Assembly (NCBI GenBank): GCA_021838785.1
Contig: JAKCCV010000010.1
Coordinates: 1 to 64,000 of the forward strand
DNA: 64,000 bases
Source of the DNA: Acidobacteriota bacterium
GTDB lineage: Bacteria; Acidobacteriota; Terriglobia; UBA7540
Reading direction: 5' to 3'
The notes beneath the pieces are model-generated. The model worked only from the letters and a program-made list of their open reading frames with translations. It was not told the DNA's origin and ran no database searches. Positions 27,239 to 30,692 of the stretch are shown piece after piece. How positions within the stretch are numbered: position 1 is the stretch's first letter; each line of letters begins with the position of its first letter. The translations under genes were made by a program, and so were the position numbers.

Positions 27239-27955
27239 CTAGCCGCCGACGAAATTTTCCAGTCCTGCTTTGTTTTGGATGACCAGCGTGGCGCCGCGCA
27301 GAGACGCCAGGCGCCGCGCCCGAAATTCACTGAGGATGCGCGTCACCGTCTCGCGCGAGGTGCCGATAAATTGGGCAATCTCTTCGTGAGTCAGGCCCAG
27401 CTTGACGCGCGTGCCTTGCGGGGAGGGTTCTCCATCCTCCGACCACTCAAGCAGCAGGCGCGCCAGCTTCTCCGGCGCCGAGCCCGCCAGTCCGAGCGTC
27501 CGCAATTGGTCAGTGACGGAATTGTAGTTTGAGCTGAGGTTCTCCACCGCCCGCAATCCCGCCTCGCCGTGCAGCCTCAGCAACCGCAGAAAATCGTCTC
27601 TCCCAATAAAGTTGACCTGGCAGGGATGGAGGGCTTCCGCCGTCACCTCGTAGGGCTGACCGGCAATTGTGGCGCTCAACCCCAACACTTCGCCCGGTCG
27701 GGCAATGCGCAGGATCAGCGTCTTCCCTTCGCTTGAACTGGTCGAAAGCTTCACCCGGCCTTGGCAGAGCACGAACACTCCGCGGGAGGCCTGGCCCTCG
27801 ACAAAAAGAACAGCGCCTTGCGGGTAGCTGTTGGTGAACTTCACGGCCTCCAAGTCGCGCAAGGCATTGGGATTTAACTTACAGAAAAATCCGTTGGTGC
27901 GTGCGCGGCACGTTTGGCAATTCTCAATCAATTCCAGCCCATAAGGTGACCGCAT
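27239..27955 (-). CDS. FNR-like transcription regulator with four candidate Fe-S cysteines
   Basis: A 238-residue Crp/Fnr-family protein. An N-terminal cluster has Cys 13, 16 and 25 (ENCQTCRART, FFCKL). A cyclic-nucleotide-type beta barrel follows, with Cys 112 (ALHPCQVNF) at the position matching the fourth ligand of E. coli FNR. The winged helix reads LTHEEIAQFIGTSRETVTRI. SRETVTR in the recognition helix is CRP-like rather than the E-xx-SR of FNR. The four cysteines suggest an oxygen-labile [4Fe-4S] cluster, which is inference. ATG 27955 is set by GGAGG 7 nt upstream. It follows the STAS-like gene within 1-2 bp. Confidence 0.85.
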   Translation of the reverse strand: MRSPYGLELIENCQTCRARTNGFFCKLNPNALRDLEAVKFTNSYPQGAVLFVEGQASRGVFVLCQGRVKLSTSSSEGKTLILRIARPGEVLGLSATIAGQPYEVTAEALHPCQVNFIGRDDFLRLLRLHGEAGLRAVENLSSNYNSVTDQLRTLGLAGSAPEKLARLLLEWSEDGEPSPQGTRVKLGLTHEEIAQFIGTSRETVTRILSEFRARRLASLRGATLVIQNKAGLENFVGG

Positions 27956-27956
27956 C

Positions 27957-28250
27957 TCACTTCCTCCCTTCCCGGAGGCTTTCAGCCTCCCTAACAGCTT
28001 CGGCAACAATATATTTGGTCATGGGAGCGTCGGCAATCAGTTCCGTCCCGTTTCGATGCATCCGGCTGAGAAGCTCCTTCCCGTTCTCATCAACCGCTGA
28101 CACTGAACAGAGATCCACGCTCAGCCGCTGTTCGCCAGCCCTTAATGACGTCCACACACTGTCAACCTCATTGACCCAAGGCCCGACCAATCGTCCCTCC
28201 AGTTTAATCCTCATCCCGTGCGGGGAGGCTTCTGTCGTGATCCTCAGCAC
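27957..28250 (-). CDS. STAS-like domain protein, partner of FNR-like regulator
   Basis: A 97-residue single-domain protein: LRITTEASPHGMRIKLEGRL, VGPWVNEVDSVW, LSVDLCSVSAVDENGKELLS and HRNGTELIADAPMTKYIV. Strand-helix order and the DLxxVxxVDENGKELL block match STAS/anti-sigma-antagonist-like domains; the usual phosphorylatable Ser is not obvious. GTG 28250 is chosen, with AGAGGG 6 nt before it; a longer TTG start at 28316 is unsupported. Its stop nearly touches the regulator start, so the two are translated together and may act on each other. Confidence 0.7.
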   Translation of the reverse strand: MLRITTEASPHGMRIKLEGRLVGPWVNEVDSVWTSLRAGEQRLSVDLCSVSAVDENGKELLSRMHRNGTELIADAPMTKYIVAEAVREAESLREGRK

Positions 28251-28338
28251 ACCAAGCCCTCTTTGCTCTTGGACGCCTCCACGCCCTGTGTTACGAGCAT
28301 TTTCGTCTCCAACCAAGCCTGTTCGCCAAATGTTAAAA

Positions 28339-28361
28339 ATAAGCTACTTATAATCAATAAG
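28339..28361. promoter_or_regulatory. Overlapping palindromic half-sites before STAS-regulator operon
   Basis: Three half-sites alternate orientation: ATAAG (28339-28343), CTTAT (28347-28351), ATAAG (28357-28361), with spacers of 3 and 5 bp. The region is A/T-rich within GC-rich DNA and lies in the 200-bp gap upstream of the minus-strand operon. It may be an operator; it does not match the FNR box. Confidence 0.35.
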
Positions 28362-28451
28362 ATACATTGCTTACGCAGCTTTCTTGGTGGAAGGCCGAGG
28401 TGCCCGGAAGCCGGTTTTGGCTGACGTTATATCGTCATTGACGGCTTATCG

Positions 28452-30692
28452 TCAGATGTCTCGCCGGTCAATCCCTAGTTTCCGCATTTTTGAGTTCAAG
28501 GTAGTGCGTTTGAGCCCGAGGCGAGCGGCTGCGCCATCCGGCCCGCTGATGCGGCCGCCGGCTTCTCGCAGAACGCGAAGGATGTGCTCTCGCTCGGCAA
28601 CCTCCAGCGAGGTGGAGGGACCCGAAGGTGAGGATAGCGCCGCCTTGAGTTCTGCTATGGGAGCTTGCAGTCTGCCGCCCGGCGACAGAATCACGGCCCG
28701 CTCGATAAAATTTTCCAACTCGCGCACGTTTCCTGGCCAAGGATAACTGCTCAAGGCGTCCATGGTTTCCTGGGGGATATCCGTGATTTTGCGGTTCATG
28801 CGCTGGGAGTGTTTCTGCGTGAAGTAGCGGACCAAGATGGGGATATCGCCCCGGCGCTCGCGCAGAGGGGGAACCAAAATCGGGAACACGTTGAGGCGAT
28901 AAAAAAGGTCGCTGCGGAAACGGCCGTCCTTCACCATCTCTTCAAGGTTGCGATTGGTGGCGGCAATCAGCCGCACATCCACGTGGATGGAGCGGGTGCC
29001 TCCCAGCCGTTCGATTTCCTTCTCCTGCAGAGCGCGGAGGAGCTTGGGCTGGAGTTCCAAGGGCAGGTCGCCAACTTCGTCGAGGAACAGCGTGCCCTGG
29101 TCGGCCAGCTCCATGCGGCCGACCTTTTGCGCGATCGCGCCCGTGAAGGCGCCCTTCTCGTGACCGAAGAGTTCGCTTTCCAGCAAGCCGGCGGGAATCG
29201 CGGCGCAACTGATTTTGACAAACGTATGGTTCTTGCGCGGGCTAAGCCGGTGGATGGCGCGCGCGATCAGCTCCTTGCCCGTTCCGGTTTCGCCGAGAAT
29301 TAGAACGGTCGCCTCCGTTTCCGCCACGGTTTCCACCTGTTTTAACACGCGGCGCAAGCCGGGGCTTTCGCCGACGATTTCCTCAAAGTTGTACTCGGTT
29401 CGCAGTTCGTCTTCAAGGTAGGTTTTCTCTTCTGCCAGACGGTCTTTCAGCTGAGTGATGCGCTGGAAGGCCAGCGCATTATCCATCGCCAAAGCAATTT
29501 GGTTCGCCAACTGCGAGAGCAGGTGACAGTTTTCCTGGCGAAAGGCGTTGGGCTGACGGCTGGCTAAATTCAGCGTTCCCAGCACGCGATCCCGGCTCAC
29601 CAGCGGCAGCCAGCAGGCCGATTGCATCCCCGCCGCTGCAAGGTAAGGAATGAGTCCGGAATGAAAACCGGAATCCTCAATGCGGTCAAGCGACAAAACC
29701 TTCTGCGACGTGACGACCCAGCCTTCCGGCGAACCGCTGCGCGGGACCACGGCGGGTGCGCCTTCGTCTGGCAACCCCTCGCCAAGGGCTTGGACGTAAA
29801 GCTGTCCGGTAGTGGCGTCGAAGAGCGCCAGGCTGGCGTAATCGCAAGGAAATACCCTCCTCAGGCTGGACGAGATGGCGTCCAACAGTTGGTGGATGTC
29901 CACGCTGGCGATCAGCACGCTTGAAAATTCCAACAGCAACGCCTCCAGAGCTTGCTTGCGCGCCGTAAAGTCACGGGCCACCTTGGAATAGTTGCGGATC
30001 TTGCCCGTGCTATCCCGAATGGCGGTGGTGACGACGTTGGCCCAGAATTTGGTCCCGTCTTTCCGCAGTCGCCATCCTTCATCCTCGGTCCGCCCCAGAA
30101 GCGCCGCCCGATGCATTTCCGCCTCGGGCAAGCCCCGCGCCACGTCTTCCGGCGTGAAGAGAATCGAGCAAGGCTTTCCTAAAACCTCCTCGGCGGTAAA
30201 ACCGTTGGTTTTTTCCGCTCCGGGACCCCATCGGACAATGCGGCCCTCCGCGTCCAACATAAAAATGGCGTAATCCTGAATGCTCTCGACCAGCAGCCGG
30301 AGTTGCTCCTCGCGGAGGCGCAATTCTTCTTCGTACTTCCTCCGGTCGGTTAAATCTCGAATCACACTGAGGGTGACGCCGCCGTCTTCTCCGGCGATAG
30401 GACTTAGCATGATGTCCACGGGAAACTCGCTGCCGTCCTTGCGCCGAGCGCCCAGCTCCAGGCCCGTGTTGAGATGACGCCGGTGCGGTTCGGCCTGGTA
30501 GGCTTCCCGCCGTTGAACGTGCTTTGCCCGAAGGTGGTCGGGGACCAGCCGCTCGATAGGTTGTCCGAGGAGCTCATCTCGGCTGTAGCCGAACAGCGCC
30601 TGAGCCTGGTTATTCAGTTGGATAATCTTGCCTTCAGAGTCCGTCAGGATGATGGCGTCTGGCAGGGATTCGAAGAGTTGCTCAAAGTTCAA
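28452..30692 (-). CDS. PAS-PAS-GAF sigma-54-dependent activator
   Basis: A 746-residue enhancer-binding protein. PAS domain 1 (about 1-120) and PAS 2 (about 125-250) end in RDLTDRR and RDFTARK. A GAF domain spans about 255-410. The AAA+ domain has Walker A in [18 protein letters not shown], the sigma-54 contact loop GAFTGA, Walker B in [12 protein letters not shown], and the R-finger region. A Fis-type HTH ends the protein ([20 protein letters not shown]). The start is TTG 30692 with GAGG 8 nt upstream. There is no receiver domain, so the signal probably enters through PAS/GAF, such as redox, light or a small ligand. Its targets are not adjacent. Confidence 0.92.

Follow-up and report, generated by a model that had tools for sequence, protein, structure and literature searches.

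The window, a 64,000-nucleotide stretch of Acidobacteriota DNA, carries on its reverse strand a gene for a sigma54 enhancer-binding protein (EBP), followed by a gene for a small protein with a STAS fold and by a gene for a Crp/Fnr-type regulator (Table 1). The TGA stop codon of the STAS gene is separated from the ATG of the regulator gene by a single G, so the junction of 1 to 2 bp described in the sequence-only reading of this DNA is in fact a gap of 1 nt. The same 1-nt gap is found in 9 of the 21 pairs among the best regulator loci, and in 6 of the 12 pairs among the named loci.

Table 1. Features of the STAS-regulator locus and of the sigma54 module upstream of it, in positions of the window.
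Feature	Position	Strand	Basis
Sigma54 enhancer-binding protein (EBP), PAS-PAS-GAF-AAA+-HTH_8	28452..30692	-	Pfam Sigma54_activat 2.3e-73, PAS, GAF, HTH_8
UAS-like palindrome 1 TGACGATAAGCCGTCA, overlapping the EBP stop codon	28439..28454	-	TGAC-N8-GTCA
UAS-like palindrome 2 TGACGATATAACGTCA	28422..28437	-	TGAC-N8-GTCA
AT-rich dyad CTTATAATCAATAAG (CTTAT-N5-ATAAG) in the spacer between UAS and promoter	28347..28361	.	exact motif match
-24/-12 sigma54 promoter-like site, TTGG-N10-GC	28297..28312	-	142 nt from EBP stop
STAS-fold protein, 97 aa, GTG start	27957..28250	-	model pLDDT 92.5; Foldseek SpoIIAA 7.2e-05, RsbV 3.4e-04; no Pfam match
Crp/Fnr-type regulator, 238 aa	27239..27955	-	Pfam cNMP_binding 6.1e-20 and HTH_Crp_2 4.4e-19; model pLDDT 88.3; Foldseek GlxR/CRP/FNR
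Cys13-X2-Cys16-X8-Cys25	27881..27919	-	regulator N-terminus
Cys64, proposed fourth Fe-S ligand	27764..27766	-	cysteine co-occurrence
Cys112, variable; column of FNR Ser119 and the CRP cysteine, not of FNR Cys122	27620..27622	-	
Recognition helix SRETVTR, CRP-type	27338..27358	-	TGTGA-N6-TCACA found near relatives fits the helix

A STAS gene lies directly upstream of the regulator gene in 21 of the 30 best regulator loci, the window included; eight of these loci have no STAS gene (one of them carries a shortened remnant) and one has no upstream sequence. Among 80 named loci kept from 547 confirmed ones, which we take from their names to belong to Acidobacteriota, 12 are paired (L152 through a weak, partial STAS match with an E value of 0.0074), 67 are unpaired and 1 has too little upstream sequence. 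A phylum-wide draw of 199 genomes contains the regulator in 27 genomes (E ≤ 1e-40) and the STAS protein in 25 (E ≤ 1e-6), and a comparison of coordinates finds the two genes adjacent only in the window's own genome, indicating that the pairing is a trait of the window's closer relatives, one clade among the sampled Acidobacteriota. When the presence of a STAS partner is mapped onto a FastTree tree of the regulators (81 labelled rows, 28 of them paired; 15 rows whose open frame starts far from the matched start, mostly unpaired regulators, are left out), it requires 2 changes, compared with a mean of 23.4 and a minimum of 19 in 100 shuffles of the label. Given this difference, the pairing is consistent with one origin. 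The sequence-only reading had named conservation of the pair as its own test, and the pair is indeed conserved, within one clade. In a congener (G003), the EBP gene, the UAS-like sites, the promoter-like site and the regulator gene are kept, and the STAS frame is internally shortened, in frame, to a remnant of 39 codons (L070:9248-9367) that still lies 1 nt before the regulator gene.

At the level of sequence, the features expected of an operon under the control of a sigma54 EBP are all present: an AAA+ protein with a Fis-type HTH, upstream dyads and a -24/-12-like promoter. We collected 25 distinct EBP-regulator units, 22 of them with STAS, and counted UAS-like and promoter-like sites in them without a shuffle control. 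TGAC-N8-GTCA with at most one mismatch lies within 80 nt of the EBP stop codon in 21 of the 25 units, 19 exactly, and 13 of those 21 units have two copies that are 17-18 nt apart. TTGG-N10-GC lies 120-142 nt downstream in 17 of the 25, and its offset in the window, measured from the EBP stop codon, is identical in two congeners. Within the 64-kb window, TGAC-N8-GTCA matches only the twin sites (2 matches; shuffle mean 0.44, with 8 of 100 shuffles reaching 2). The stricter TGACG-N6-CGTCA has 2 matches in the 3.42-Mb genome, both of which are this twin, and the reversed control also gives 2. Because the genome-wide count is not raised over its control, it is the tandem position behind the EBP gene that is the telling part.

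The sequence-only reading had drawn attention to alternating ATAAG/CTTAT half-sites upstream of the pair. These half-sites are present and include an exact CTTAT-N5-ATAAG in the AT-rich spacer that runs from the twin TGAC-N8-GTCA sites (28422-28454) to the promoter-like site (28312-28297). With at most one mismatch, the window holds 2 matches to the dyad, where shuffled sequence averages 0.41 and 5 of 100 shuffles give 2. We rejected it as a candidate operator on finding that it is not kept in the congener G003 and that only an outer CTTA-N7-TAAG is kept in G001. We saw no sign of autoregulation through a CRP-type site at the operon's own promoter, with 16 matches (at most two mismatches) in the window compared with 13.8 expected. 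In one relative, G024, the corresponding region does contain TGTGA-N6-TCACA without a mismatch. Of the 40 fetched loci, 15 have a receiver-like gene, in most cases between the EBP and STAS genes, where the window has none; as judged by eye, the usual phosphoacceptor Asp of this gene (L067:6597-7013 and homologues) is seemingly present in some loci and missing in others.

Pfam, the predicted model and Foldseek agree that the regulator has the Crp fold, with a cNMP-type domain and a C-terminal Crp HTH. The sequence-only reading called it a four-Cys protein of the FNR type, with a SRETVTR recognition helix. The helix is as described, and Cys13, Cys16, Cys25 and Cys112 are all present; what had been overlooked is a fifth cysteine, Cys64, and in both a MAFFT and an HMM alignment Cys112 pairs with Ser119 of E. 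coli FNR and with the cysteine of CRP. In neither alignment is the fourth ligand of FNR, Cys122, matched by a cysteine of the regulator, which has Asn115 in that column. Cys64 occupies the column of FNR Arg72 (FNR residues are numbered on the fetched E. coli sequence).

We then compared the cysteines across 159 family members scoring at least 150 bits, a set that leaves out partial rows, near-identical cores and rows under this score. The N-terminal triad Cys13/16/25 is kept in 139 members, and 138 of these 139 also have Cys64. Cys112 is present in 87 of the triad-bearing members and missing in 52. Conversely, among the 15 members without the whole triad, Cys64 is found in 0 and Cys112 in 8; five of the 159 have intermediate cysteine sets. 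The fewest changes that account for these distributions are 8 for the triad, 8 for Cys64 and 25 for Cys112 on a tree of 157 rows (two further gappy rows left out), and 8, 8 and 14, respectively, on a tree of 80 rows. Cys13, Cys16, Cys25 and Cys64 are invariant in 59 aligned members. Exceptions exist in the wider family: L031 keeps the triad and has neither Cys64 nor Cys112, and the STAS-paired members L026 and L028 have damaged cysteine sets. Variability of the cysteines among orthologues, which the sequence-only reading would have counted against itself, is therefore seen for Cys112, whereas Cys13/16/25/64 are nearly invariant. Since only 3 phylogenetically independent contrasts between the triad and Cys64 lie on well-supported branches, a sign test cannot reach significance, and we claim none for their joint change.

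In the predicted model of the regulator, DSSP places Cys64 within a strand spanning residues 59-65 and Cys112 at the start of a strand spanning residues 112-118. We take these strands to be neighbours in the Crp fold, which might allow Cys64 to approach the position of FNR Cys122 from the strand next to it. The pattern of co-occurrence suggests that Cys13, Cys16, Cys25 and Cys64 are the likely Fe-S ligand set, with the fourth ligand in an unusual position.

Other members of the family, and Crp-type proteins near them, are worth recording here. Three triad-less paralogues (L098:4489-5451, L099:6214-7101 and L100:6178-7191) lack Cys13/16/25/64, keep Cys112 and have, at a distance of 0.7 to 5 kb, genes recognised by eye as encoding CusA-type pumps; a CusA-type gene also occurs in the loci of two cysteine-bearing members, L084 and L094. 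Several relatives have a second Crp-type protein 3' of the regulator that consists of a cNMP-type domain only, without an HTH and without the cysteine set (L067:9581-10189, L068:5121-5663, L081:9558-10019, L082:5042-5530 and L083:5368-5814; L068 by Pfam, the others by eye). A role for these proteins as decoys or dimer partners is possible.

An unbiased search for 5+5 dyads in the upstream regions of 49 neighbour genes returned TGTGA-N6-TCACA in 8 regions and GTGAC-N4-GTCAC in 7, whereas no dyad rose above 2 in 20 shuffles. At up to one mismatch, TGTGA-N6-TCACA precedes 15 of 19 universal stress protein (USP) genes near regulators, some of these 19 regions coming from close relatives, and the 8 exact sites all lie before USP genes; in 200 shuffles of the 49 regions the count never exceeded 2. 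The sixteenth site at this threshold lies before an alcohol dehydrogenase gene (1 of 3). No such site was found before the genes for phosphoketolase (0 of 6), acetate kinase (0 of 8), cytochrome bd (0 of 2) or CoA-ligase (0 of 11), so among the low-oxygen neighbours only the link to USP genes is supported. In the 40 fetched loci, the neighbours, which were named by eye except for one phosphoketolase and one CoA ligase, comprise USP (13), CoA ligase (6), phosphoketolase (3), acetate kinase (3) and cytochrome bd (2). The window's own genome has 4 exact TGTGA-N6-TCACA sites compared with 0 for the reversed control: one precedes a USP gene, one a radical SAM gene and one a small gene without a Pfam match, and the fourth is ~0.5 kb from a gene named by eye as that of a 2-oxoacid dehydrogenase E2. 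Going by the specificity of CRP, an RETVTR helix would predict this very dyad. On these sequence comparisons, TGTGA-N6-TCACA is likely to be the operator of the regulator; it might also serve the genome's other Crp-type proteins. A transcriptome of Acidobacterium capsulatum shows strong uspA induction at low oxygen: on a drop from 10 to 0.1 µmol/l, expression of several uspA genes goes up, two of them 7- and 56-fold (PMC11636273). The term FNR is absent from the main text of that paper.

A different account of the cysteines is that they bind Zn or form redox disulfides, and that the signal to the regulator is thiol stress or something else. CxxC motifs commonly ligate Zn, and the NCBIfam models for FtrB (72.6 bits) and CRP (61.3 bits) score the regulator above those for the Fe-S sensors FnrL (51.1 bits) and Fnr (39.1 bits), with all four far below their cut-offs. 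What argues for a cluster instead is the presence of three N-terminal cysteines as in FNR, the Foldseek similarity to holo-FNR among other Crp proteins, and the low-oxygen type of the neighbouring genes, each of which is compatible with Zn too. We consider a Zn-binding or disulfide-forming regulator unlikely, although it is the strongest of the competing explanations.

The label STAS-like, given to the 97-aa protein by the sequence-only reading, is right, as SpoIIAA and RsbV are the best Foldseek matches of its predicted model (probability 1.00 for a SpoIIAA-like fold); a comparison with Pfam profiles gave 0 families at E ≤ 1. A conserved phosphorylatable Ser, as in the DS[SG]G loop, was not found in the column that we matched by eye to SpoIIAA: 7 of 17 rows have Ser or Thr there, and the window protein has Glu. 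Likewise, no RsbW-type kinase was recognised by eye in the loci; L073 has a Ser/Thr-kinase-like frame.

The window's own genome contains one further STAS copy (G000:C38:284427-284720, locus L101). Directly upstream of this copy lies an EBP paralogue (C38:284937-286445), which scores 571 bits compared with 299 bits for the next in that genome. Of 49 distinct STAS genes, 44 have enough flanking sequence for their context to be read, the 5 loci with short flanks being left out, and 30 of the 44 lie behind such an EBP. By context, these 44 genes divide into 23 with EBP, STAS and regulator, 2 with STAS and regulator without an EBP, 7 with EBP, STAS and TolC, 5 with STAS and TolC without an EBP, and 7 others; several of the 14 loci with no EBP found upstream have only ~1.5 kb of flank. 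Judged by this gene order, the STAS gene appears to be tied to an upstream EBP no less than to the regulator. Because STAS also follows an EBP of this kind where a TolC gene stands in place of the regulator gene (7 loci, own genome included), we think it more likely that the STAS protein is part of the EBP module, with an action on the regulator as a further possibility. The second STAS frame runs without a stop codon into an OEP/TolC efflux gene (L101; also L102:6388-8154), and STAS-TolC open frames of ~550-620 aa occur in a number of genomes; a cytoplasmic STAS domain ahead of a signal-peptide-like stretch is odd. Elsewhere in the own genome, the stretch G000:C27:120213-121172 resembles an EBP gene whose frame is interrupted by a single TGA.

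The sequence-only reading had proposed that the STAS protein directly modulates the Fe-S regulator at the protein level, much as PipX does for NtcA. The 1-nt gap in about half of the pairs and the retention of the pairing in one clade agree with this proposal, and the NtcA-PipX structures among the Foldseek matches illustrate that a Crp-family protein can have a protein partner. The proposal is weakened, however, by the 67 of 79 informative named regulator loci that have no STAS partner and by the STAS-EBP-TolC loci that have no regulator; moreover, the congener G003 makes do with the 39-codon STAS remnant while keeping the rest of the module. We therefore regard direct modulation of the regulator as rather improbable.

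The two kinds of EBP differ in their recognition helices, which read ..TTLN.. in 19 of 19 EBPs from the CRP context and ..TTLQ.. in 6 of 6 from the TolC context; in 5 of the 30 units (L077, L072, L151, L143 and L053) the helix was not located, so their intergenic stretch may be misplaced. Sites in the CRP context are closer to TGAC-N8-GTCA in 21 of 23 cases (2 ties), two of these assignments (L077 and L134) resting on 2 mismatches compared with 3, and sites in the TolC context are closer to TGCC-N8-GGCA in 6 of 7 (1 tie), all without a shuffle control for the comparison of helix and site. The Asn/Gln difference in the EBP helix and the A/C difference in the twin sites look like a covarying specificity pair in a duplicated circuit.

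The explanation that we favor, with a probability of roughly 0.55, is an EBP-driven cassette of a STAS protein and an FNR-like Fe-S regulator with a relocated fourth ligand that switches on USP genes at low oxygen. The EBP, sensing through its PAS and GAF domains, would bind the TGAC-N8-GTCA twin, which overlaps the stop codon of its own gene, and fire the -24/-12 promoter, yielding a translationally coupled operon of STAS and regulator in which, in a number of relatives, a receiver-like gene precedes STAS. The regulator would carry an oxygen-labile Fe-S cluster, most likely on Cys13, Cys16, Cys25 and Cys64, the last of which is on a different strand from the one with the fourth ligand in E. 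coli FNR. At low oxygen, the regulator would bind TGTGA-N6-TCACA and activate the genes for universal stress protein and related survival functions. The STAS protein would most likely be an accessory of the EBP, acting by feedback or partner switching, and would be made together with whatever cargo the EBP drives, namely the regulator here and an efflux gene in the paralogous module. What the sequence analysis establishes is the order of the genes and its conservation, that the sites are present, that the cysteines occur together and that the folds are predicted; the cluster, the response to oxygen, the binding events, the activity of the promoter and the target of STAS are inferred. That the regulator is instead a canonical FNR orthologue with Cys112 as its fourth ligand is very improbable, because its CxxC motif with a third N-terminal Cys and the 87 triad-bearing members with Cys112 are outweighed by the 52 without it, the alignment of Cys112 with FNR Ser119 and the CRP cysteine, the CRP-type recognition helix and an Fnr model score of 39.1 bits against a cut-off of 228.

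More tentatively, we propose that these regulators may form a distinct Fe-S class of the Crp/Fnr family, with Cys64 on another beta-roll strand as fourth ligand and a CRP-type operator, and that this class is the low-oxygen USP regulator of Acidobacteriota, delivered by a duplicated EBP-STAS cassette whose circuits are kept apart by the EBP Asn/Gln and site A/C differences and whose STAS protein represents a novel type of EBP accessory. Soils in which oxygen levels fluctuate harbour many Acidobacteriota, and the regulator family is a concrete candidate, with a predicted operator, for the induction of uspA at nanomolar oxygen. Its cysteine pattern makes it possible to test directly whether the Crp/Fnr fold can hold a cluster in a different geometry, and the association of STAS with an EBP suggests a target for STAS proteins. 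A 2026 structural review divides [4Fe-4S] FNR proteins into an N-terminal and a C-terminal kind (PMC12937710), and the excerpted text of PMC8256260 has no occurrence of FNR. Each component of the locus belongs to a known kind. Our searches of the open-licence literature turned up no counterpart of the cysteine set, of the linkage between EBP and STAS or of the specificity pair in the two circuits. In that literature, we found no paper on a STAS domain with Fnr in Acidobacteria, on an operon of Crp/Fnr and a STAS domain protein, or on an association of STAS with an EBP or sigma54, the papers on STAS and RpoN naming no such association in their titles or in the opening lines of their abstracts.

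Several known systems resemble parts of this one. The FNR proteins of E. coli and A. fischeri share with the regulator the Crp fold, an N-terminal CxxC with a third Cys and a probable role in oxygen sensing, and E. coli fnr adjoins the USP gene uspE, much as regulators here have USP neighbourhoods. In contrast to FNR, the regulator has a spacing of X8 rather than X5 to the third Cys, a conserved Cys64 in place of a Cys at the FNR Cys122 column, and an RETVTR helix with TGTGA-N6-TCACA enriched near USP genes, where FNR has a VETISR helix and TTGAT. The CRP/NtcA/GlxR branch provides the best sequence and fold matches to the regulator, and CRP likewise pairs an RETVxR helix with a TGTGA-N6-TCACA operator; unlike CRP and NtcA, the regulator has an extra cysteine set, and there is no evidence for cAMP or 2-oxoglutarate as its ligand. 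The STAS protein resembles the STAS-only proteins SpoIIAA and RsbV in its predicted fold and differs from them in its variable phospho-Ser position and in lying below Pfam detection. In the Syp system of Vibrio fischeri, with the EBP SypG and the STAS protein SypA, a STAS gene likewise lies in a sigma54-controlled locus. There, SypA is phospho-regulated by SypE, which is a difference, and we know of no Crp/Fnr partner in that system. SypA and SypE of V. fischeri are the subject of PMC10120452, as its excerpted text has it. Finally, the EBP shares the GAF-AAA+-HTH_8 architecture of FhlA, NifA and NorR (NCBIfam scores of 538, 404 and 380 bits, respectively, each below the cut-off of its family), and differs from these EBPs in that the UAS-like TGAC-N8-GTCA overlaps its own stop codon and in that its cargo consists of STAS and the regulator.
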